The translations under genes and the position numbers were made by a program. A model generated the notes under the pieces. The model saw only the letters and a program-made list of their open reading frames with translations, had not been told where the DNA came from and did no database searches. From contig NZ_VSKL01000001.1 in assembly GCF_008086165.1 (NCBI RefSeq), positions 62,001 to 126,000 on the forward strand: a stretch of DNA of 64,000 nt. Reading direction: 5' to 3'. Source of the DNA: Algorimicrobium algoritergicola (lineage in GTDB: Bacteria > Bacteroidota > Bacteroidia > Flavobacteriales > Flavobacteriaceae). Shown piece after piece: positions 23,684 to 32,592 of this stretch (positions are counted from its first letter, which is position 1; every line of letters begins with the position of its first letter).

Positions 23684-24100
23684 TTAATGCGGCAACTTAT
23701 CTTTAAGAACTCCATATACGTACGTCCCTAAAATAGCCGAAGCAATAACCACCAAGATTGGCCAATAACCTGCACCTACCAAAACATACATAGGCCCTGG
23801 ACAAGCACCCGCCAATGCCCAACCTAATCCAAAAAGTGTTCCACCAATTAGGTAACGCTTAAAGCCACTTTCTTTTGCTTCAAACTGAAGCGTTTTACCG
23901 TAAAACGATTTAATTTTGAAGCGTTTTATAACAAACGTCATCAACAAACCTAGACTTAATGCCACACCTATAATGCCATACATGTGAAAAGACTGGAATT
24001 GAAACATTTCAAAAATACGAAACCATGACGCCGCTTCCGATTTAAACATGGTGATTCCAAAAATGACACCTATTACTAAATATATACCTGTTCTCATCAT
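23684..24100 (-). CDS. YeeE/YedE-type sulfur transport protein (DUF6691-like half)
   Basis: 138-aa inner-membrane protein with about four helices and the conserved GWALAGACPGPMYVLVGAGYWP stretch, whose Cys is expected to guide thiosulfate or a related sulfur compound across the membrane. YeeE/YedE proteins often occur as two half-size genes, as here: the partner ends at the base before this gene begins. It closes a two-gene operon starting at 24658. Confidence 0.85.
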   Translation of the reverse strand: MMRTGIYLVIGVIFGITMFKSEAASWFRIFEMFQFQSFHMYGIIGVALSLGLLMTFVIKRFKIKSFYGKTLQFEAKESGFKRYLIGGTLFGLGWALAGACPGPMYVLVGAGYWPILVVIASAILGTYVYGVLKDKLPH

Positions 24101-24658
24101 TTAAAAAATTAAAGGGAATACTACATGAACCATTATCAAGCCTCCTAAAAAGAAACCAACAACCGCAATTAATGAAGGCAATTGTAAATTACTCAAACCA
24201 GAAATAGCATGACCAGAAGTACAACCTCCAGCATAACGCGCTCCAAATCCGACTAAAAAACCACCAATAATTAAAACTAACAATCCTTTTACATCCGTAA
24301 AAACATCATTTCCAAACAATTCAGTTGGCATATAGCTTGTTCCAGCACTATCAAACCCTAAAGCATTTAAGTCTGCGACGGTTTGATTACTGATAGCCAC
24401 TGTATCGTTAGGTGATAAATATTCCGAAGCAATAAAGCCACCAATGACAGCTCCAATAACGACGATTAAATTCCAACGTTGGGATTTCCAATCGAAATTG
24501 AAAAAATCTGTACGCTTTCCAGCGCCTACCATACTACAAAGTGTGCGGAGGTTAGAAGACATTCCGAAACGTTTATCTACCATAACGAGCAGAAACATTA
24601 CTAATGCAATCATAAAGCCAGAGAAATACCAAGGCCAAGGTTCAAGAATAAATGCCAT
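24101..24658 (-). CDS. YeeE/YedE thiosulfate-transporter family protein
   Basis: 185-aa membrane protein with about four to five helices. Two YeeE-type signatures are present: the segment GAGKRTDFF (45-53) and GARYAGGCTSGHAISGLSNL, whose CTSGH Cys is the family's sulfur-relay residue. It forms a pair with the following gene. In this context (persulfide dioxygenase, rhodaneses, TauE) it probably moves thiosulfate or another reduced sulfur species. The palindromic box at 24716-24731 lies 58 nt upstream. Confidence 0.88.
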   Translation of the reverse strand: MAFILEPWPWYFSGFMIALVMFLLVMVDKRFGMSSNLRTLCSMVGAGKRTDFFNFDWKSQRWNLIVVIGAVIGGFIASEYLSPNDTVAISNQTVADLNALGFDSAGTSYMPTELFGNDVFTDVKGLLVLIIGGFLVGFGARYAGGCTSGHAISGLSNLQLPSLIAVVGFFLGGLIMVHVVFPLIF

Positions 24659-24715
24659 GTTTTGTGTTTATTTTTTTGCAAATAAACAGATAAATGTTCA
24701 AGAAACTAAATCCTT

Positions 24716-24731
24716 TGTAACATTCGTTACA
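24716..24731. promoter_or_regulatory. Crp/Fnr-type operator, box 1 (TGTAACATTCGTTACA)
   Basis: Perfect 6-4-6 palindrome in the divergent gap between the YeeE gene and the desaturase/hydroxylase gene. Exactly 21 nt separate its right edge from TAACTTTG (24753), placing it near -41 of the + promoter, the class II activator position. On the - side a weaker element TTTATCTG lies at the same 21-nt distance. It shares its core with boxes at 27872 and 29404. The Crp/Fnr protein at 30305-30970 is the likely binder (inference). Confidence 0.75.
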
Positions 24732-24752
24732 GACTTTGGTAGTTCACAAAAC

Positions 24753-24790
24753 TAACTTTGCACCTATTTGCAATTTCTTCAGTAACTTTG
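24753..24790 (+). promoter_or_regulatory. Tandem -7 elements ahead of the sterol desaturase family gene
   Basis: Two identical TAACTTTG elements lie at 24753-24760 and 24783-24790. The first is at the fixed distance from box 1. The second has TTG at 24758-24760, 22 nt upstream, and so resembles an ordinary promoter. This suggests one regulated and one basal promoter. The ATG is at 24808. Confidence 0.6.
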
Positions 24791-24807
24791 CTAAACAATA
24801 AACTGCT

Positions 24808-25692
24808 ATGTGGAATTATATTAACGCCTTTAAGGACGCTGTTTTAGGAACACTAGATTGGACTTGGAATTCCATTATTTTTGAAGTGCCTTGGTACACC
24901 AATTATTTTTGGGGATTAATTGTCATTTCATTACTGGTTTGGGGATTAGAAATTCTATTTCCATGGCGAAAAAACCAAGCCATTTTCAGGAAAGATTTCT
25001 GGCTGGATGCATTTTATATGTTTTTCAACTTCTTTATTTTCGCTATTATTATTAGTGGTGTTTATAGTTTTTTAGAAGTCGCTTTTGCTGATTTAGGTAT
25101 TTCCATGACTAGTTTAGCATTAATAGACATAAGTCCTTGGCCAATGTGGTTACAGTTACTCGTATTCTTTATCGTTTTAGATTTTGTTCAATGGTTTACA
25201 CATGTTTTACTACATCGTTTTGAAGTGCTTTGGCGTTTTCATCAAGTGCACCATAGCGTAAAAGAAATGGGCTTTGCTGCGCATTTGCGTTACCATTGGA
25301 TGGAAAATGTCCTATATAAGCCATTAAAGATTTTTGGTGTTATGATTCTCGGTGGCTTTGAACCGGAACAAGCTTACATCGTGCATTTCATTGCTATTTC
25401 TATTGGTCACTTTAATCATTCAAATATTAAAATTACTTATGGTCCATTAAAATATATATTGAATAACCCAGTGATGCATTTGTACCATCATGCATACAAT
25501 TTACCAGAAGGCAAACAATTTGGCATGAATTACGGAATCAGTTTGAGTGTTTGGGATTATATTTTTAAAACGAATTACATTCCCGAAGACAGTGGAACCA
25601 TTGAATTAGGCTATGAAGGCGATGACTCCATGCCAAGTACGTTTTTAGGACAGATGAGATATGGTTTCTCTAAGAAGGAAAAACAAGCTTAA
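24808..25692 (+). CDS. Sterol desaturase / fatty acid hydroxylase family protein
   Basis: 294-aa membrane di-iron oxygenase with about four helices. The family's His clusters are present: HVLLHRFEVLWRFHQVHHS (HxxxH and HxxHH, about 131-149), HFNHSN, and HLYHHAYN (about 218-225). The enzyme is expected to hydroxylate or desaturate a lipid using O2. It shares the divergent gap and operator box with the thiosulfate-transport pair, so it may belong to the same regulon; why a lipid oxygenase would be linked to sulfur metabolism is unclear. Its 3' end adjoins a convergent gene with no space for a separate terminator. Confidence 0.88.
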   Translation: MWNYINAFKDAVLGTLDWTWNSIIFEVPWYTNYFWGLIVISLLVWGLEILFPWRKNQAIFRKDFWLDAFYMFFNFFIFAIIISGVYSFLEVAFADLGISMTSLALIDISPWPMWLQLLVFFIVLDFVQWFTHVLLHRFEVLWRFHQVHHSVKEMGFAAHLRYHWMENVLYKPLKIFGVMILGGFEPEQAYIVHFIAISIGHFNHSNIKITYGPLKYILNNPVMHLYHHAYNLPEGKQFGMNYGISLSVWDYIFKTNYIPEDSGTIELGYEGDDSMPSTFLGQMRYGFSKKEKQA

Positions 25693-26274
25693 CTACTTTT
25701 TTAGAAGCTTAATAAACAGTTCGCTATCCTCCCGACTTGTCATAGAATTATAGCTAGCTTCAAAAATATCAAAATCAAAATACGACTTAAAATAGGTGAC
25801 GTATTCCGCTTTAGAACCTCCAAATGGTGGTCTTTCTGTAAACAACGGCTTATCAAATAATAAACCAACCAACTTTCCATTCGGATTTAATAAGCTGTGC
25901 ATTTTTTTAGCGTACGCTTCACGAAGGTTTGGATTTAATGCACAAAAAAAGGTTTGTTCAATAATTATATCGAAAGTTTCCTTCATATCAAAAACATTAA
26001 TATGCAGTAAATTTTCATCTGGAAAACTTGGAACACGGTTTTTAAAATTATCCAATGCTGTTTTTGACAAATCGGCTATACATACATTTTTAAACCCATT
26101 TAGAAACAAGTATTCAGCTTCATAGGAATTTCCTGCTCCTGGAATGAGAATTTTAAGCGATGTATCTTTTAACTGATCTATATACGTTTTAATTGGCAAG
26201 GACACTTCGCCTAAATCCCAACCTATATCTTGATTTTGATACCGTGAATCCCAAAATGTTTCTGATAAATCCAT
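25693..26274 (-). CDS. TPMT-type S-methyltransferase (thiol methyltransferase candidate)
   Basis: 193-aa class I AdoMet methyltransferase of the thiopurine S-methyltransferase family. FWDSRYQNQDIGWDLG (7-22) is the family's N-terminal signature; the AdoMet motif is ILIPGAGNSYEAEYL and the C-terminal half has GKLVGLLFDKP with PPFGGSKAEY. Bacterial and algal relatives methylate thiols, sulfide, thiocyanate or halides. As the last gene of an operon with a rhodanese and a thioredoxin, it probably methylates a small thiol or sulfide. The substrate is inferred. Gap to trxA: 3 nt. Confidence 0.85.
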   Translation of the reverse strand: MDLSETFWDSRYQNQDIGWDLGEVSLPIKTYIDQLKDTSLKILIPGAGNSYEAEYLFLNGFKNVCIADLSKTALDNFKNRVPSFPDENLLHINVFDMKETFDIIIEQTFFCALNPNLREAYAKKMHSLLNPNGKLVGLLFDKPLFTERPPFGGSKAEYVTYFKSYFDFDIFEASYNSMTSREDSELFIKLLKK

Positions 26275-26277
26275 AGC

Positions 26278-26574
26278 TTATAAATGTGATTGAATTAAAG
26301 ATACCAAATCGCGTTTAGAAGCTAAGCCAGATTGTCTCCATAATTGTTTTCCGTTTTTATAGAGAATAAGCGTTGGTACGCCACGAACTTTAAATTGGGC
26401 TGCTAATTGCTGATTTTTATCGACGTCTATTTTTAAAATAGTGACATCTTCACCAAGGCTATCTTTTACTTCTTTCAGAATTGGACTCATAGTTTTACAT
26501 GGCCCACACCATTCCGCAAAAAAATCGACTAAAACAGGTTTGTCTTTATTTATTATTTCTGAAAAATTGCTCAT
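26278..26574 (-). CDS. trxA: Thioredoxin
   Basis: 98-aa cytoplasmic thioredoxin with active site EWCGPCK (Cys23, Cys26), cis-Pro in VRGVPTLILY and no signal peptide. It lies in the five-gene sulfur operon 9 nt after the CxxCH lipoprotein gene. The local role is probably to reduce persulfides or disulfides formed by the rhodanese; the genome may well have another general thioredoxin. Confidence 0.93.
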   Translation of the reverse strand: MSNFSEIINKDKPVLVDFFAEWCGPCKTMSPILKEVKDSLGEDVTILKIDVDKNQQLAAQFKVRGVPTLILYKNGKQLWRQSGLASKRDLVSLIQSHL

Positions 26575-26583
26575 GTCTACATT

Positions 26584-27207
26584 TTATTTATCAAACGAAA
26601 TACTCCAAATTCCACGTACTTCATTTTCAATATACCCAATAGCTTCGTCTTTTGGATATAAAGCTTTAATACTTTTATACACTTCTGGTTCTACCGCTTT
26701 TCCATGACATTGCAAACACATAGTATTGGTTTCAATTGGATAATAAAATCTGATGCCATTTGATGTTTCTTCAACGATGGGATCTGGATTTATACCTAAC
26801 AAAAAATCTTCTTTAAATTTTGCAATATGCTGAATTTCTAGCACATTGGCTTGATTTCTTGGGTTTCTTGGTTTATCAGAAACACGCTTAATATGGGCAT
26901 TGTGTTTTACAGCCATACTATCCGTTAGCGGGTAAGCGGCCACATTACAAAATTCAACAGCTGCTAGCGTACCATGTTTTTGAATCGTGCCCATTAAATT
27001 TTTCCCCAAAGCGGCTTTCGTACTTATGGCATATTCCATCCCAATATCTGCATAGGATTTTTCAGGCTCTAAAGTCATTTCTTCTTTAGAAGCTTTATGA
27101 GTTTCCTCAAATTCAATTTCTGCTTCCTTCTGTTCTGATTTTTCTGAATTTTCACAACTCACAAATACAGCCCATGCGAAAACCAATACATAATATTTAC
27201 GATTCAT
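26584..27207 (-). CDS. CxxCH haem lipoprotein, DUF3365 (Tll0287-like)
   Basis: 207-aa exported protein. The signal ends in FVSC (Cys18), so it is lipid-anchored. A Glu-rich linker is followed by a DUF3365 domain with the c-type haem motif CLQCHG (Cys164, Cys167, His168). Family members bind one haem and resemble redox or gas sensors. I start at 27207, which gives the lipoprotein signal and an 11-nt overlap with the preceding HMA gene; a start at 27231 is possible. In this operon it may take electrons from, or sense, a sulfur species in the periplasm (inference). Confidence 0.85.
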   Translation of the reverse strand: MNRKYYVLVFAWAVFVSCENSEKSEQKEAEIEFEETHKASKEEMTLEPEKSYADIGMEYAISTKAALGKNLMGTIQKHGTLAAVEFCNVAAYPLTDSMAVKHNAHIKRVSDKPRNPRNQANVLEIQHIAKFKEDFLLGINPDPIVEETSNGIRFYYPIETNTMCLQCHGKAVEPEVYKSIKALYPKDEAIGYIENEVRGIWSISFDK

Positions 27208-27475
27208 GATTTGCCATTTTTCCGGTTGCACAACTTATAAAAGACTGGGCTTTAGTTACCACTGAATTAGCCGTATCAATTTCTGGATACCCTATAGATT
27301 TCAGTTTTTGTTTGGCAACTACTAAATCTGCTTCAGATGCATAATCAAAGCTCACTTCGTTAGATTCCACTGCTACTAATATGTTTTCAATACCTGCAAT
27401 ACCTGCTAACTTGGTTGATATGGTATGGGCACAACCAACACATTTTAAATTTTGTATTTCGAGTGTTATTTCCAA
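27197..27475 (-). CDS. Small HMA-like protein with CxxC motif
   Basis: 92-aa protein. The first 65 residues form a heavy-metal-associated ferredoxin-like fold with KCVGCAHTIS (Cys12, Cys15), as in copper chaperones. It has an added C-terminal tail with another Cys (Cys82, ISCATGK). It overlaps the rhodanese gene upstream by 10 nt and the haem lipoprotein gene downstream by 11 nt, so all three are translationally linked. It could carry copper or, given the neighbours, relay sulfane sulfur through its thiols; the sequence cannot decide. Confidence 0.82.
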   Translation of the reverse strand: MEITLEIQNLKCVGCAHTISTKLAGIAGIENILVAVESNEVSFDYASEADLVVAKQKLKSIGYPEIDTANSVVTKAQSFISCATGKMANHES

Positions 27476-27822
27476 TTTAAATAACCGCCTTTTAAATCAT
27501 AAATCTCCGTAAATCCCATAGCTGCCAATTTGTTGGACGCTTTTCTACTTCGCGCACCACTTCTGCAATAGATATAAAGCGGTTTTTCTTTGTCAAATTT
27601 TTCAAATTGACTTTCAAAACTAGTCGCAAAAAAATCAATATTTTCAGCATTCTTAATGTGTCCAGAATTATATTCATCAGGCGTTCTAACATCAACTAAC
27701 TGAATCTTTCCTTTTTCTATTTGTGTTTTGTATTCTTCAACAGGTAATACTTTTATTGCATCGTTTTGAGCTGTTCCGAACAGCATAGATATAAATGACA
27801 TAATGATTAATATTTGTTTCAT
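27466..27822 (-). CDS. Periplasmic single-domain rhodanese
   Basis: 118-aa sulfurtransferase-like protein. Signal peptide (1-18, ending FGTAQ) followed by one rhodanese domain: LVDVRTPDEYNSGHI and active-site loop YCRSGARS with Cys86. It begins at 27822, 50 nt from operator box 2; a longer frame starting at 27879 would run through the operator and lack a signal at its start. It is the first gene of a five-gene operon (rhodanese, HMA, CxxCH lipoprotein, thioredoxin, TPMT) and probably handles sulfane sulfur in the periplasm. Confidence 0.88.
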   Translation of the reverse strand: MKQILIIMSFISMLFGTAQNDAIKVLPVEEYKTQIEKGKIQLVDVRTPDEYNSGHIKNAENIDFFATSFESQFEKFDKEKPLYIYCRSGARSRKASNKLAAMGFTEIYDLKGGYLNWK

Positions 27823-27842
27823 ATTTACTCTTAATTCGTTTA

Positions 27843-27887
27843 TAAAATTACAAGGAATATTTAACCCTATACGTAACATTTGTTACT
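27843..27887 (-). promoter_or_regulatory. Crp/Fnr-type operator box 2 with -7 element
   Basis: The box CGTAACATTTGTTACT (27872-27887) keeps the GTAAC-N4-GTTAC core. Exactly 21 nt downstream on the - strand lies TAATTTTA (27850-27843), one base from TAnnTTTG. The geometry is the same as in boxes 1 and 3. It serves the rhodanese-led operon. Confidence 0.72.
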
Positions 27888-27889
27888 AA

Positions 27890-27915
27890 AAAAGAGTGGC
27901 TTTCACCACTCTTTT
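27890..27915 (-). terminator. Terminator of the persulfide dioxygenase gene
   Basis: 10-bp stem (aaaagagtgg / ccactctttt) with a 6-nt loop, followed by TTT on the - strand. It abuts operator box 2 of the next operon. Confidence 0.75.
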
Positions 27916-27938
27916 AAATATACGGAATTTTTAATAAA

Positions 27939-29351
27939 TTATTTTAACGTTGTTGGACAAACAAAATCTGTAACTGGAATACCTGCCTTTTTAATTGCTG
28001 CAAAACCACCTGCAATTTCTACTAAATTATGAATACCACGGCTCTTTAAAATAGAAGCTGCAATAACACTGCGGTAACCACCAGCACAATGCACGTAAAA
28101 TGTATCGTTTTTTGGAAATTCGCTCAAATGATCATTTAAAAAATCTAGTGGCGTTAAATGGGCTTCGTTAATGTGAGCCGATGTAAACTCGCCTTCTTTT
28201 CTAACATCAAAAACAGGAATAGTATCTTTCTCTAAAATGTCTTTAAATTCGGTTGCAGGAATGGATTTAATAGTATCTGTTTCTTTTCCGGAATTTTTCC
28301 AAGCTTCAAAGCCTCCTTTTAAATAGCCAACTGTATAATCAAAACCAACACGAGATAAACGTGTAATAGTTTCTTCTTCTCTGCCTTGTGGCGCAACTAA
28401 TAGAATTGGTTGTTTAACATCAGCAATTAAGGCACCAACCCAAGGTGCAAATCCACCATCAATTCCTATAAAAATGGAACGGGGAATATGGCCTTGCACA
28501 TAATCAGCTTGATGACGCACATCTAAAATAACGGCTTCAGTTTCATTGGCTGCCGCTTCAAACGCATCTGGCGATAAAGCTTGTGTTCCACGTTTTAAAA
28601 CCACATCAATATCTTCATATCCTTCTTTATTCATCTGAACATTTAAAGGGAAATATTGTGGTGGTGGCTGTAAACCATCCGTTACTTCATGTATAAACTC
28701 TTCTTTGGTCATATCCGCTCGTAAGGCATAATTGGTTTTCTTTTGGTCGCCAATAGTCCCTACAGTTTCTTTACTTAAATTTTTACCACATGCAGATCCT
28801 GCACCATGAGCCGGGTAAACAATAACATCATCAGCCAAGGTCATGATTTTGGTTCGTAAGCTCTCAAATAAAATACCTGCTAACTCTTCCTGCGTCATGC
28901 TTGAAGCTTTTTGTGCTAAATCTGGTCGACCAACATCACCTAAAAACAAGGTGTCTCCACTAAAAATAGCATGATCTTTTCCGTTCTTATCTTTTAGTAA
29001 ATAGGTGGTACTTTCCATAGTATGCCCTGGTGTATGCAAAGCTGTAATGGTAATATCGCCTAATTGAAACACTTGGCCGTCTGTAGCAATAACAGAATCA
29101 AATCCTGTTGATGCTGTTGGACCAAAAACAATTTTAGCACCACTTTCTTTAGCCAATGTTACGTGACCACTTACAAAATCAGCATGAAAATGGGTTTCAA
29201 AAATATATTTGATTTTAGCGTTATCTTTTTTAGCGCGTTCTAAATACGGTTTCACTTCGCGAAGTGGATCAATAATAGCCACCTCACCTTGGCTTTCTAT
29301 ATAGTAAGCACCTTGCGCTAAACATCCTGTATATATTTGTTCAATTTTCAT
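27939..29351 (-). CDS. Persulfide dioxygenase-like MBL hydrolase fused to two rhodanese domains
   Basis: 470-aa protein. The metallo-beta-lactamase domain (1-235) has the ETHE1/CstB-type iron motif THFHADFVSGH (53-63), TPGHT and FSGDTLFLGDVGRPD. Rhodanese 1 (about 245-350) has LLVAPQGREEE where the active loop should be, without Cys, so it is inactive as a sulfurtransferase. Rhodanese 2 (about 365-465) has the complete loop HCAGGYRS with Cys422. Such fusions oxidise glutathione or other persulfides to sulfite and pass sulfur to make thiosulfate. Sulfite and thiosulfate are then natural substrates of the neighbouring TauE and YeeE/YedE proteins. Confidence 0.9.
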   Translation of the reverse strand: MKIEQIYTGCLAQGAYYIESQGEVAIIDPLREVKPYLERAKKDNAKIKYIFETHFHADFVSGHVTLAKESGAKIVFGPTASTGFDSVIATDGQVFQLGDITITALHTPGHTMESTTYLLKDKNGKDHAIFSGDTLFLGDVGRPDLAQKASSMTQEELAGILFESLRTKIMTLADDVIVYPAHGAGSACGKNLSKETVGTIGDQKKTNYALRADMTKEEFIHEVTDGLQPPPQYFPLNVQMNKEGYEDIDVVLKRGTQALSPDAFEAAANETEAVILDVRHQADYVQGHIPRSIFIGIDGGFAPWVGALIADVKQPILLVAPQGREEETITRLSRVGFDYTVGYLKGGFEAWKNSGKETDTIKSIPATEFKDILEKDTIPVFDVRKEGEFTSAHINEAHLTPLDFLNDHLSEFPKNDTFYVHCAGGYRSVIAASILKSRGIHNLVEIAGGFAAIKKAGIPVTDFVCPTTLK

Positions 29352-29374
29352 ATTTCTTACTTTTTAATATGCTG

Positions 29375-29419
29375 CAAATTTACGAATATCTGTTGAAATA
29401 GACAGTAACTAAAGTTACA
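29375..29419 (-). promoter_or_regulatory. Crp/Fnr-type operator box 3 with -7 element
   Basis: The box AGTAACTAAAGTTACA (29404-29419) has a perfect GTAAC-N4-GTTAC core. A perfect -7 element TAAATTTG (29382-29375 on the - strand) lies 21 nt away and the ATG of the persulfide dioxygenase gene 24 nt beyond that. No good TTG -33 element is needed if an activator binds the box. Confidence 0.78.
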
Positions 29420-30226
29420 TTACGCCTTTACAAAAAACTCCATGTAAAAGATAAAAATAGCCATAGCAAAGACAAAATAACCAAATCCTTTTTTGAGTTT
29501 TTTACCATCTACGAAGTTACCTAAATAACTTCCAATAAAAATACCAACCAAAGAAATAGCTGTAAATGATAGTAGAAATTTCCAATCGATTGTCATGGTT
29601 AATGCATCACCTAGAAAAAACCCAGACAAGGCATTCATGGCTATAATAATTAAGGATGTTGCTACGGCCACTTTTATGTCCACATTAGCCAAAAGCACGA
29701 GAGCCGGAATTATTAAAAAACCTCCTCCTGCTCCAATCATGCCTGTAATAGCACCAATTAGCAACCCTTCAATAATGATTAAAGGATAATTATAAGATAC
29801 CTGACTATTTTCAGGTTTTATTTTCACATCTCTTAACATGGATAAAGCGGCGGGAATCATTAAAATAGAAAACATACCGAACATAACCATTCGTCTCGTA
29901 AACTCGAAATTGCCTATTGTAAACATAACTTCGGGAAGTGCCGGAATAACAAAATGCCTAACTACTGAAATTCCAATAATTGCTGGAATACCAAAAACAA
30001 TAGCAGTTCGCCAATCAACTAAACCTTTTTTATGCTGTTTTAAACCGCCAACTAAAGCACTAACACCAACAACAAATAACGAGTAAGCTGTAGCCACTTT
30101 TTCATTTACTGAAAATAAATAAGCTAAAACAGGAACAGCTAAAATGGAGCCACCACCACCAATTAATCCTAATACAATACCAATTAGCAAAGCACTTATA
30201 TAGCCAAAAATTTCTAATATTTCCAT
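29420..30226 (-). CDS. TauE/SafE family sulfite or organosulfonate exporter
   Basis: 268-aa inner-membrane protein with about eight helices and the family's repeated halves: IGLIGGGGSILAVPVLAYL near residue 20 and ITGMIGAGGGFLIIPALVLLA near 160. Family members export sulfite, sulfoacetate or related anions. It lies between the persulfide dioxygenase and the Crp/Fnr gene, so removing sulfite made by the dioxygenase is the simplest role. Confidence 0.9.
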   Translation of the reverse strand: MEILEIFGYISALLIGIVLGLIGGGGSILAVPVLAYLFSVNEKVATAYSLFVVGVSALVGGLKQHKKGLVDWRTAIVFGIPAIIGISVVRHFVIPALPEVMFTIGNFEFTRRMVMFGMFSILMIPAALSMLRDVKIKPENSQVSYNYPLIIIEGLLIGAITGMIGAGGGFLIIPALVLLANVDIKVAVATSLIIIAMNALSGFFLGDALTMTIDWKFLLSFTAISLVGIFIGSYLGNFVDGKKLKKGFGYFVFAMAIFIFYMEFFVKA

Positions 30227-30250
30227 ATAATGGGTTTCAATATACTAACG

Positions 30251-30297
30251 CAAAAGTATACTTTTATTTAAATTGGGTTTGTGTAAACTATGCTACA
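30251..30297 (-). promoter_or_regulatory. Degenerate operator box 4 with -7 element ahead of tauE
   Basis: TGTAAACTATGCTACA (30282-30297) keeps 8 of 10 core positions of GTAAC-N4-GTTAC. TACTTTTG (30258-30251 on the - strand) is a perfect -7 element 23 nt away, two more than in the other boxes. It is likely a weaker member of the same set. Confidence 0.5.
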
Positions 30298-30304
30298 TAG
30301 CTTG

Positions 30305-30970
30305 CTATTCATTGTTTAGGATAATATAATTCCGGTGTAATTGAACCTTCCCCATATTTTCTAATTTTTTAAGTAAACGGGAAACAACCACGCGTGAGGT
30401 ATTCAATTCATAAGCTATATCCTGATGCGTGCTGTAAATGGTATTACCTTCTGAAACACGTGCTTTTTCGTTAAGATATTTTAGCAAACGCGCATCCATT
30501 TTCAAAAAAGCAATGCTATCAATAGTATCTAACATTTCATTTAATCGGCTGTGATAACTTTCAAAAACGAAATTTCTCCAGCTTTTATATTTAGACGACC
30601 ATTCTTCCATTTTCTCGATTGGAATCATAATCAATTTGGCATCGGTTTCTGCAATGGCACGAATTTCACTTTTAGTCCGACCCATACAACAGGTTAAAGT
30701 CATAGCACAAGTATCGCCTTTTTCTAAAAAATAAAGTAATAATTCATCACCATCATTATCTTGTCTTAAAATTTTTATAGCACCTGTGAGTAGTAAAGGC
30801 ATGGATTTAACATACGATCCTATTTCAATAAGCACGTCATCTTGTTTAACTTCTTTTAAAAAACCAACCTGATTGATTTCATCAAGCAAATCGGTTTCAA
30901 AAAAATGACCGTAATTATTAGTTAATTCTTCTTGCATAGCATGACATTTTTCCTCTGGCAATATAGCCAT
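30305..30970 (-). CDS. Crp/Fnr-family transcriptional regulator with Cys cluster
   Basis: 221-aa regulator: cyclic-nucleotide-binding-like beta barrel (about 25-120), dimer helix, and a C-terminal winged helix with recognition segment TSRVVVSRLLKKL (191-203). The sensor domain holds an unusual cluster, DTCAMTLTCCMG (Cys88, Cys94, Cys95), plus Cys9, without the four-Cys FeS arrangement of Fnr. The cluster could sense sulfide, persulfide or arsenite through thiols. The gene lies between the sulfur and arsenosugar islands and is the obvious candidate to bind the GTAAC-N4-GTTAC boxes. Confidence 0.9.
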   Translation of the reverse strand: MAILPEEKCHAMQEELTNNYGHFFETDLLDEINQVGFLKEVKQDDVLIEIGSYVKSMPLLLTGAIKILRQDNDGDELLLYFLEKGDTCAMTLTCCMGRTKSEIRAIAETDAKLIMIPIEKMEEWSSKYKSWRNFVFESYHSRLNEMLDTIDSIAFLKMDARLLKYLNEKARVSEGNTIYSTHQDIAYELNTSRVVVSRLLKKLENMGKVQLHRNYIILNNE

Positions 30971-31087: not shown

Positions 31088-31423
31088 ATGCAGAAAACAT
31101 ATTACGACCCAGCAGACCTTAAAAAATTTGGTAAAATTTCCGAATGGAACGAAGAACTAGGCGCCAAATTTTTTGATTATTATGGAAAAGTTTTCGAGGA
31201 AGGCGCACTTTCTGAACGTGAAAAATCACTAATTGCCCTTGCCGTAGCGCACACCATTCAATGTCCTTATTGTATTGATGCTTATACTGGAGACGGTTTG
31301 CAGCGCGGCATTACAAAAGAAGAAATGGTGGAAGCTTTACATGTAGCTGCTGCTATTAGAGGTGGTGCCTCATTAGTGCATGGCGTACAAATGATGAATA
31401 AAGTGAACAAACTAGATATGTAA
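31088..31423 (+). CDS. AhpD-like carboxymuconolactone decarboxylase family protein of the arsenosugar cluster
   Basis: 111-aa helical protein of the CMD/AhpD family with redox pair CPYC (Cys59, Cys62) in HTIQCPYCIDAYT. This form is known as the arsenosugar biosynthesis-associated peroxidase-like protein because it sits beside arsS. It may reduce an arsenical or protect against peroxides; the exact role is not known. It is the first gene of the island, divergent from the Crp/Fnr gene. Confidence 0.88.
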   Translation: MQKTYYDPADLKKFGKISEWNEELGAKFFDYYGKVFEEGALSEREKSLIALAVAHTIQCPYCIDAYTGDGLQRGITKEEMVEALHVAAAIRGGASLVHGVQMMNKVNKLDM

Positions 31424-31539
31424 GCAAGCTGTTGATTTTGTAGTATTTTTAAAACCGAACAACACAAAATTTCAAACAAAATTTTCTTGTTTAAATTTTA
31501 ATGCTTGAAAACCTTGAACCAGAAACTTTAAACCTAAAC

Positions 31540-32592
31540 ATGATTAAATCCTTAAAGCAACAAGAAAACGCATTAGCAGACAGCAAACGCCAATTAGAAA
31601 TACTTTCTAATGGTATTTTTAAAACTGGTGAATTACCAACTTTCAAAAATAAAATAGCTGAAAGCAATCAGTTTCCTTTAAAAGCGAAAAAACTAGAAAT
31701 ACTCCAAATTAATGTGGGCTATATGTGCAACCAAGTTTGTACGCATTGCCACGTGGATGCTGGTCCAGACCGTAAGGAAATCATGACAAAGGAAACCATG
31801 TTGCAATGTTTAGAAGTTATAAAAAACACGGAAGCCCACACGTTGGATTTAACAGGAGGCGCACCGGAAATGAATCCACTTTTCCGTTGGTTTGTTGAAG
31901 AAGCTGCTAAAGCTGGCGTAAAAGATTTTATAGTTCGTTCTAATTTAACCATTATCCGAGCCAACAAAAAGTATTACGATTTACCGGAGTTTTTCAAAAA
32001 ACATAATGTGCATGTCGTGAGCTCCATGCCACACTGGACACAAGGCAAAACGGATAAGCAACGTGGTGATGGTGTTTTTGCAAAATCTATAAAAGCATTG
32101 CAAGAATTAAATGCTATTGGTTATGGAATGCCCAACAGTAATTTGCGTTTAGATTTGGTGTATAATCCGTCTGGCGCTTTTTTACCAGGCAACCAAGCAG
32201 CCATGGAAAAAGATTTCAAAAAAGCACTTTTAGAAGATTTTGATATTCAGTTTCATAATTTATTCGCCATTACCAATTTACCAATTGCGCGATTTTTAGA
32301 TTATTTAATTGCTTCCGAAAATTACGAAGATTACATGTACAGTTTAGTGGAAGCTTATAATCCTTCGGCTGTGAAAAGCGTGATGTGCACCAACACACTT
32401 TCCATTAGTTGGGATGGGTATTTATATGATTGTGATTTTAACCAAATGTTAAACCTACCAGTTAATAGTTCCGTTAAACATATTTCAGAATATAATGAAG
32501 GTTTGTTAGCAGGACGAGACATCATGATATCCCAACATTGTTATGGTTGCACGGCAGGCGCAGGAAGTAGTTGCCAGGGTAGCGTTGCTTAA
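31540..32592 (+). CDS. arsS: Arsenosugar biosynthesis radical SAM protein ArsS
   Basis: 350-aa radical AdoMet enzyme. The CxxxCxxC cluster is at CNQVCTHC (Cys63, Cys67, Cys70), the glycine-rich TGGAPEMN follows, and a Cys-rich C-terminus (CYGCTAGAGSSCQ) suggests an auxiliary cluster. ArsS enzymes transfer a deoxyadenosyl group to dimethylarsenite, giving the precursor of arsenosugars. I prefer the ATG at 31540 (MIKSLKQQEN); an ATG at 31501 adds 13 residues. The ArsM partner lies 4.3 kb downstream in the same direction. Confidence 0.93.
   Translation: MIKSLKQQENALADSKRQLEILSNGIFKTGELPTFKNKIAESNQFPLKAKKLEILQINVGYMCNQVCTHCHVDAGPDRKEIMTKETMLQCLEVIKNTEAHTLDLTGGAPEMNPLFRWFVEEAAKAGVKDFIVRSNLTIIRANKKYYDLPEFFKKHNVHVVSSMPHWTQGKTDKQRGDGVFAKSIKALQELNAIGYGMPNSNLRLDLVYNPSGAFLPGNQAAMEKDFKKALLEDFDIQFHNLFAITNLPIARFLDYLIASENYEDYMYSLVEAYNPSAVKSVMCTNTLSISWDGYLYDCDFNQMLNLPVNSSVKHISEYNEGLLAGRDIMISQHCYGCTAGAGSSCQGSVA

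Follow-up and report, generated by a model that had tools for sequence, protein, structure and literature searches.

Sulfane-sulfur regulators of the FisR, CstR, BigR/SqrR, YrkD and SoxR types control SQR, persulfide dioxygenase, rhodanese or exporter genes; they carry conserved cysteines, belong to protein families other than CRP/FNR, and act as repressors or sigma-54 activators. Here we describe a Crp/Fnr-type regulator and its predicted sulfur regulon in a 64,000-nucleotide (nt) stretch of the genome of the flavobacterium Algorimicrobium algoritergicola (NCBI RefSeq assembly GCF_008086165.1, contig NZ_VSKL01000001.1, positions 62,001 to 126,000; hereafter, the window, whose own numbering is used throughout). 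The regulator is encoded at 30305–30937, and a palindromic box, GTAAC-N4-GTTAC, recurs around it at a fixed distance from putative promoters of sulfur genes. An earlier note on this DNA had proposed, from the letters alone, that the neighbouring Crp/Fnr protein activates a sulfur regulon through this box. From sequence comparison across relatives, we consider it highly probable that regulator, box, position and regulon have jointly been assigned correctly.

The closest described systems lie within the CRP/FNR superfamily, to which the regulator belongs by its PF00027 and PF13545 domains (both above cut-off) and by Foldseek matches to CRP, NtcA and FNR. HcpR2, a branch reported in Bacteroides among others (Rodionov 2005; passages of PMC1274295), shares the box, given there as GTAACnnnnGTTAC, and a residue other than Glu at the position equivalent to CRP 181. 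In those passages, however, residue 181 of HcpR2 is Pro (Ser or Gln in three species) and its target is hcp, whereas the regulator here has Val, its boxes precede sulfide and sulfane-sulfur genes, and the genome encodes no PF03063 protein (that is, no hcp gene); we therefore do not assign it to HcpR2, the shared box notwithstanding. NtcA of cyanobacteria is similar in the Arg-Val of its recognition helix (by alignment) and in its GTA-N8-TAC box, which is centred at -41.5 in a class II arrangement (passages of PMC3898017) and to which the boxes here conform. It differs in its nitrogen regulon and 2-oxoglutarate, and membership is rejected by the NCBIfam NtcA equivalog model (40.9 against a cut-off of 244.95 bits). 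Likewise rejected are an E. coli-type CRP (NCBIfam equivalog, 52.8 against 266 bits) and an E. coli-type FNR (NCBIfam Fnr, 20.4 against 228 bits; the box is GTAAC, not TTGAT). Among solved structures, the Crp/Fnr protein 3dv8 of Eubacterium rectale ranks first in the PDB by sequence (E = 3.9e-14) and shares first place by fold; it has a C-x5-C at the same place but Glu at 181. In the open-licence PMC literature, the literal box was found only in the HcpR2 paper, and neither a Crp/Fnr sulfur regulon in Bacteroidota nor a sulfide regulator for the group was found; carbon sensing has been predicted for Crp/Fnr homologs of a Flavobacteriales metagenome-assembled genome (MAG; passages of PMC8510549), which may or may not belong to the present family. 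The box is thus already published (as the HcpR2 motif) and the promoter architecture is of the NtcA type, and what is new is the regulon and the regulator variant.

The box and its spacing

The window contains three exact boxes (Table 1), where base composition predicts 0.07. The 5-4-5 cores that the earlier note had placed at 24716, 27872 and 29404 are real, each beginning one base further on, and the spacing to the TAnnTTTG-type -7 element is constant as claimed, at 22 nt from the 14-mer (21 nt only if the box is extended by one base at each end). An alignment of 15 regulators, scanned once against the GTDB genome collection, gave 563 confirmed relatives, and the best 80 of these supplied homologous loci totalling 1.43 Mb (hereafter, the 80 loci). 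They contain 236 exact boxes, with at least one in every locus, whereas the other 59 orderings of the GTAAC letters average 1.2 boxes (maximum 6). When a -7 element is required at 21–23 nt, 106 boxes remain for GTAAC, compared with one in total for the 59 other orderings. TAnnTTTG stands 22 nt from the box 102 times, 23 nt from it 4 times, and at any other distance up to 44 nt at most twice each. Among 171 sites at 22 nt the flanks are asymmetric: T stands immediately before the distal half in 95%, and TG follows the proximal half in a part of them (83/171), which may be the remains of a -33 element.

In Flavobacterium psychrophilum, TAnnTTTG occupies -12 to -5 (passages of PMC9723704), and with a gap of 22 nt the box therefore spans -48 to -35 and is centred at -41.5, a figure that, like the predicted +1 positions in Table 1, takes its -7 placement from that other flavobacterium. 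This agrees with the centre near -41 put forward previously, and we regard the predicted class II position as well supported by the comparative spacing. Some genomes have a single box flanked on both sides by -7 elements at 21–22 nt, or two boxes back to back (for example, L306 at 2770, L270 at 2720 and L308 at 271–301), which suggests shared control of divergent promoters.

Across the 3.54-Mb genome, the bare box is not over-represented (seven exact copies against 11 of a reversed control), and the non-random feature is the box plus its spacing. Six of the seven copies precede a gene with TAnnTTTG/A at 22 nt (five) or 21 nt (one), so that a scan with the box-plus-spacing rule, the check advised at the outset, found promoter positions rather than random ones; the seventh lies inside a 362-amino-acid (aa) open reading frame (ORF) and has no -7 element at 21–22 nt. 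Outside the window, exact boxes precede an SQR-like gene (Pyr_redox_2 by Pfam), an adjoining TolC/HlyD operon (followed, by eye, by an RND-like gene), and a small protein with a CusA-like pump that bears an OEP domain. Two one-mismatch boxes with perfect -7 elements at 22 nt precede a thioredoxin-like and a DUF983-like gene. Allowing up to three mismatches in the pattern of box, 22-nt gap and -7 element yielded 42 + 28 matches against 57 + 52 for the reversed control; weak matches therefore carry no meaning.

A fourth, weaker box had also been noted before tauE; it is present, but both degenerate and mis-spaced (Table 1). In Bizionia echini, the closest named relative among the best 80 of 563 (its regulator is 90% identical), the tauE site GTAGCATGGGTTAC has a single mismatch and the 22-nt spacing, and 8 of the 11 other close relatives compared carry an exact copy within the 140 nt that follow the regulator gene. 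Because the site is exact or better spaced in these relatives, it looks decayed in A. algoritergicola.

The proposed reader of the box

Regulator homologs (E ≤ 1e-20) were found in 167 of 199 Flavobacteriaceae genomes, and an exact box with TAnnTTTG at 21–22 nt in 133 of the 199 (reversed-pattern control, 3 matches). Such sites occur in 131 of the 167 genomes with the regulator and in 2 of the 32 without it (hand tally; Fisher 5e-15, ignoring relatedness), the latter two being 87% and 73% complete. Many regulator-less genomes are small, so size partially confounds this genome-level association, and a comparison of the promoters of one target, the persulfide dioxygenase (which we take the product of 27939–29351 to be), avoids that confounder. 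The gene is present in 26 of the 32 regulator-less genomes, and a box plus -7 element within two mismatches lies in the 150 nt upstream of it in 70 of 79 cases in regulator loci and in 0 of 25 in regulator-less genomes (Fisher 7e-17), where the best upstream region has four mismatches. A search for another shared box at the persulfide-dioxygenase genes of these regulator-less genomes gave nothing consistent. The proposal that the neighbouring protein reads the box is backed by this presence and absence as well as by the comparison of residue and box below; loss of the boxes in relatives that keep the genes, named beforehand as a case that would speak against it, turned out to match loss of the regulator while the persulfide-dioxygenase gene stays.

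In CRP, the substitution Glu181Val shifts the half-site base from G to A. Position 181 was mapped onto the present family by alignment and the known CRP helix; it corresponds to residue 183 of the 210-aa form of the regulator. The recognition helix here reads SRVVVSR, and among the nine proteins of the genome with a cyclic-nucleotide-binding domain, Arg-Val stands at the recognition position only in the 30305–30937 regulator (seven were aligned; the other two lack it by eye). Arg180 and Glu181 of CRP are among its base contacts, and position 181 is reported to correlate with a half-site base across the family (passages of PMC1274295). Residue 181 is Val in 79 of the 80 loci and Glu in one. At class level, regulator matches occur in 92 of 149 Bacteroidia genomes; 30 loci came from this search and 40 were fetched, 11 of these being the Glu-type loci again with wider flanks. 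Among the 30, a site (within ~1.5 kb, one mismatch allowed in the box and in the -7 element) accompanies 16 of 19 regulators with Val181 and 0 of 11 with Glu181; a de novo box search in those 11, with their short flanks, gave only two GTGAC sites. With larger flanks, 34 Glu-type loci contain ten GT[A/G]AC-N4-GT[T/C]AC sites that lie 22 nt from a -7 element with no more than one mismatch, and the third base of the two half-sites is GG in 5, AG in 3, GA in 2 and AA in 0 (15 of 20 halves thus have G). The 24 Val-type loci that do not belong to the 80 show AA in 8, AT in 4 and AC in 1, none with G, and in the 79 Val-type loci of the 80 the bases are AA in 207, AG or GA in 19, AT or TA in 8, GG in 4 and CA in 1 of 239 sites. 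When 21–23 nt is accepted, the Glu-type loci gain one AA site and the Val-type loci one GA site, and with one mismatch at 21–23 nt a GTGAC-like site is found in 16 of the 34 Glu-type loci. Genome-wide, with the spacing, GTGAC-N4-GTCAC occurs in 14 of the 149 genomes (control 0) and the GTAAC form in 26 (control 3). The Glu-type sites precede genes for persulfide dioxygenase, thioredoxin, peroxiredoxin, TauE, SQR-type protein, rhodanese, OsmC and the regulator. The prediction of GTGAC for Glu-type proteins was thus borne out in part, and across the wider Bacteroidia, Glu181 regulators tend to be paired with GTGAC-type boxes upstream of similar sulfur genes, although there are exceptions, which are weighed below.

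Genes behind the boxes

Box 1 had been assigned to the YeeE/YedE pair or to a desaturase-type gene; a perfect -7 element faces only the latter, a fatty acid hydroxylase gene, the candidate on the YeeE side having two mismatches. Box 2 stands before a putative operon in the order rhodanese, HMA, Tll0287-like, thioredoxin and TPMT-like. The fatty acid hydroxylase is distantly OlsE-like and is a recurrent member of the regulon. The arsenosugar-type cluster at 31088–32592, divergent from the regulator, encodes a TIGR04169 peroxidase-like protein together with one of the radical SAM/DUF3641 type.

Table 1 Predicted sites and genes in the window, with basis of assignment
Feature	Position	Strand	Remarks
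Box 1 GTAACATTCGTTAC	24717–24730	.	Exact; between the divergent YeeE pair and fatty acid hydroxylase gene
-7 element of box 1 TAACTTTG	24753–24760	+	22 nt from box; predicted +1 near 24765
Poor -7 candidate TTTATCTG	24687–24694	-	2 mismatches; 22 nt from box 1, YeeE-pair side
Box 2 GTAACAAATGTTAC (- strand reading)	27873–27886	-	Exact
-7 element of box 2 TAATTTTA	27843–27850	-	22 nt from box; predicted +1 near 27838
Box 3 GTAACTTTAGTTAC (- strand reading)	29405–29418	-	Exact
-7 element of box 3 TAAATTTG	29375–29382	-	22 nt from box; predicted +1 near 29370
Degenerate tauE box GTAGCATAGTTTAC	30283–30296	-	Two mismatches; 24 nt from TACTTTTG (30251–30258)
Second YeeE/YedE half	23684–24100	-	ORF and position only
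YeeE/YedE-type sulfur transporter half, first of pair	24101–24658	-	Pfam PF04143; homologs follow boxes
Fatty acid hydroxylase family protein	24808–25692	+	Pfam PF04116; homologs follow boxes elsewhere
TPMT-like methyltransferase	25693–26274	-	Pfam PF05724
Thioredoxin-like protein	26278–26574	-	Read from sequence; homologs behind boxes by BLAST
Tll0287-like protein	26584–27231	-	Pfam PF11845
HMA-domain protein	27197–27475	-	Pfam PF00403
Rhodanese, first gene of putative operon	27466–27822	-	Pfam PF00581
Persulfide-dioxygenase-type protein	27939–29351	-	Pfam PF00753 and PF00581; metallo-beta-lactamase plus two rhodanese domains
TauE/SafE sulfite exporter family protein	29420–30226	-	Pfam PF01925
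Crp/Fnr-type regulator	30305–30937	-	Pfam PF00027, PF13545

The sulfur regulon proposed from the window alone is borne out by the genes behind the boxes in relatives, the names of which rest on Pfam or on BLAST against the window proteins; the Pyr_redox_2 flavoproteins behind boxes we take to be SQR, and the pathway roles of these and of the persulfide-dioxygenase-type genes are likewise presumed. The first genes at 179 sites in the 80 loci are persulfide dioxygenase (47), TauE (34), DUF983 (15), SQR-type (12), the regulator itself (12, 2 of them more than 400 nt away), rhodanese (9), fatty acid hydroxylase (4), YeeE (3), Tll0287 (3), TolC (2) and the small pre-CusA protein (2), with 33 lacking a reference match and 3 at a locus end. 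The unmatched first genes that were scanned encode a 1-Cys peroxiredoxin, an SQR-like flavoprotein, cytochrome bd, an NrfD/4Fe-4S protein and a sulfite-oxidase-type molybdoprotein, and many others resemble SulP by eye. The DUF983-like protein is a frequent target (for example, L051 6177–6605), and a small protein of ~120–130 aa is recurrently found behind boxes (L008 4605–9419; L265, L271, L279 and L285), the scanned one from L265 having no Pfam match.

Away from the regulator, we took 60 regions of other genera, chosen by hand among the matches listed as off-cluster; some lie on other contigs of draft genomes, which makes their true distance to the regulator uncertain. Their 67 sites precede TolC (16), thioredoxins (5), rhodanese (4), fatty acid hydroxylase (4), persulfide dioxygenase (4), TauE (2), and YeeE, HMA and the small pre-CusA protein (1 each), with 29 lacking a reference match. 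Pfam searches with 19 of these 29 returned SulP, YgaP-TM, DsrE (two), cytochrome bd (two), a SoxA/TsdA-type cytochrome, OsmC, peroxiredoxin, thioredoxin-like proteins (two), DUF6132, cupredoxin, an aldehyde dehydrogenase, a porin and a methyltransferase, but nothing for the remaining three.

Proposed mechanism and signal, and alternatives

We propose that a dimer of the 30305–30937 regulator would bind GTAAC-N4-GTTAC centred at -41.5, where the -33 element would be, and would recruit RNA polymerase at class II promoters in which TAnnTTTG is the sole strong core element. The regulon would comprise the sulfide and sulfane-sulfur pathway (that is, SQR-like enzymes, persulfide dioxygenase, rhodaneses, sulfite/sulfate exporters and YeeE/YedE transporters), to which relatives may add sulfite oxidation, cytochrome bd, peroxiredoxins, thioredoxins, OsmC and efflux. 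Counted from the start common to its homologs, the regulator has 210 aa (the ORF opens at 30970), with cysteines at 77, 83 and 84; C77 and C83 are present in 80 of 80 close homologs and C84 in 78, and among 40 wider homologs C77 is kept in 40 and C83 in 38. By alignment and the anatomy of CRP, the cysteine loop appears to correspond to the cyclic-nucleotide phosphate-binding part. The signal would most likely be a persulfide or polysulfide that reacts with Cys77 and Cys83 in the loop replacing that cassette: given that the regulon consists of sulfide and sulfane-sulfur genes, this is the simplest way to read the protein, and the two conserved cysteines and the targets (SQR and persulfide dioxygenase, as predicted sites) are those of the functional class of sulfane-sulfur-responsive regulators. 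The box, its spacing, the regulon content and the coupling to the regulator are supported by the comparisons; we infer that the target promoters are activated and that the chemistry takes place at C77 and C83, and the signal step taken alone we hold to be about as probable as its opposite.

In its fullest form, the proposal is that a CRP/FNR-family sulfane-sulfur sensor, ancestral to Bacteroidia and bearing a C-x5-C dithiol loop in place of the cyclic-nucleotide cassette, directly switches on a complete sulfide-to-sulfate regulon, and that residue 181 flipped between Val and Glu several times with the operators following (GTAAC to GTGAC); this whole, we judge, stands at an even balance between right and wrong. 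Several observations weigh against the model of regulator, box, regulon and signal set out above. Among the 79 Val-type loci, 4 of 239 sites have GTGAC on both halves and 19 on one, and the Val-type L232 has one G half. A GTGAC-like site is absent from 18 of the 34 Glu-type loci even with wider flanks, and 6 of the 34 have a GTAAC-like site, five of these being the same mixed GTAAC/GTCAC sites as above; the sixth, L359, has an exact GTAAC box at 23 nt before TauE, and the Flavobacteriales MAG L131, a clear exception, has Glu181 yet two GTAAC boxes. On a tree of 74 rows (15 of the 80 loci, 19 of the 30 without the 11 Glu-type ones, and the 40), residue 181 changed only four times, and the three independent pairs with support gave, on average, 2.3 in which the box followed, 0 in which it went the opposite way and 0.7 in which it showed no difference, a comparison that is underpowered and not significant. 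Moreover, 36 of the 167 regulator-bearing genomes lack an exact site (some hold, by E-value, only distant paralogs), the Val-type homolog L238 has a site yet no C83, and a copper-type pump operon and a few unrelated genes (for example, aldehyde dehydrogenase and porin) also stand behind boxes. The AlphaFold model is mediocre (predicted local distance difference test 78.7, predicted template-modelling score 0.55) with its lowest confidence at the cysteine loop, and is therefore too weak there to be used in an argument on mechanism.

The same regulator and regulon may instead answer to a different signal (a thiophilic metal such as Cu(I), redox state, NO or haem), with the sulfur genes as part of that response. 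Such a reading would accommodate the box before the small protein and CusA-like pump, the HMA protein in the rhodanese operon, a C-x5-C-C that could bind metal, and the haem binding reported for two other Crp/Fnr proteins of P. gingivalis (passages of PMC12040651). We consider it possible yet rather unlikely, in view of the genes themselves: the genes most often targeted close to the regulator encode persulfide dioxygenase, TauE, DUF983, SQR-type proteins and rhodanese, and those off-cluster are for TolC-type efflux (16/67), rhodanese, persulfide dioxygenase, SulP and thiol proteins, copper-type genes being a minority. Repression from -41.5, released by the signal, would match several known bacterial sulfane-sulfur sensors that are repressors. 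It seems improbable to us, because -41.5 without a full -33 element is the canonical position of a class II activator, as for NtcA (passages of PMC3898017), and the spacer shows merely the partial TG described above.

A further alternative is that an HcpR2-type nitrosative-stress regulator, or some other Crp/Fnr protein, reads the boxes and the neighbouring gene is a bystander. It gains from the identity of GTAACnnnnGTTAC with the published HcpR2 motif (passages of PMC1274295) and from the Bacteroidia genome L196, which has no regulator match at the cut-off used and in which an exact box stands at 22 nt before a Prismane/hcp gene, as HcpR2 predicts. The genome studied here has no hcp, however, and no paralog with Arg-Val or Arg-Pro among the seven of nine aligned; sites are rare without the regulator and the box base tends to follow its residue 181, and we consider such a reader very unlikely. 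Chance palindromes near AT-rich -7 matches, for which one could cite the lack of enrichment of the bare box and the loose pattern in the genome, are refuted by the spacing peak at 22 nt together with the permuted half-sites, the genome-scale sites and the persulfide-dioxygenase promoters, and deserve practically no credence.

Seawater, sediment and guts harbour abundant flavobacteria and other Bacteroidia, which handle sulfide. If the proposed sulfane-sulfur regulon is correct, the regulator, box and spacing rule would predict sulfur genes across many genomes, and CRP/FNR would join the families that may sense sulfane sulfur. The exchange of Val and Glu at residue 181 would then allow joint shifts in the specificity of a regulator and of its operators to be tested on natural variants.

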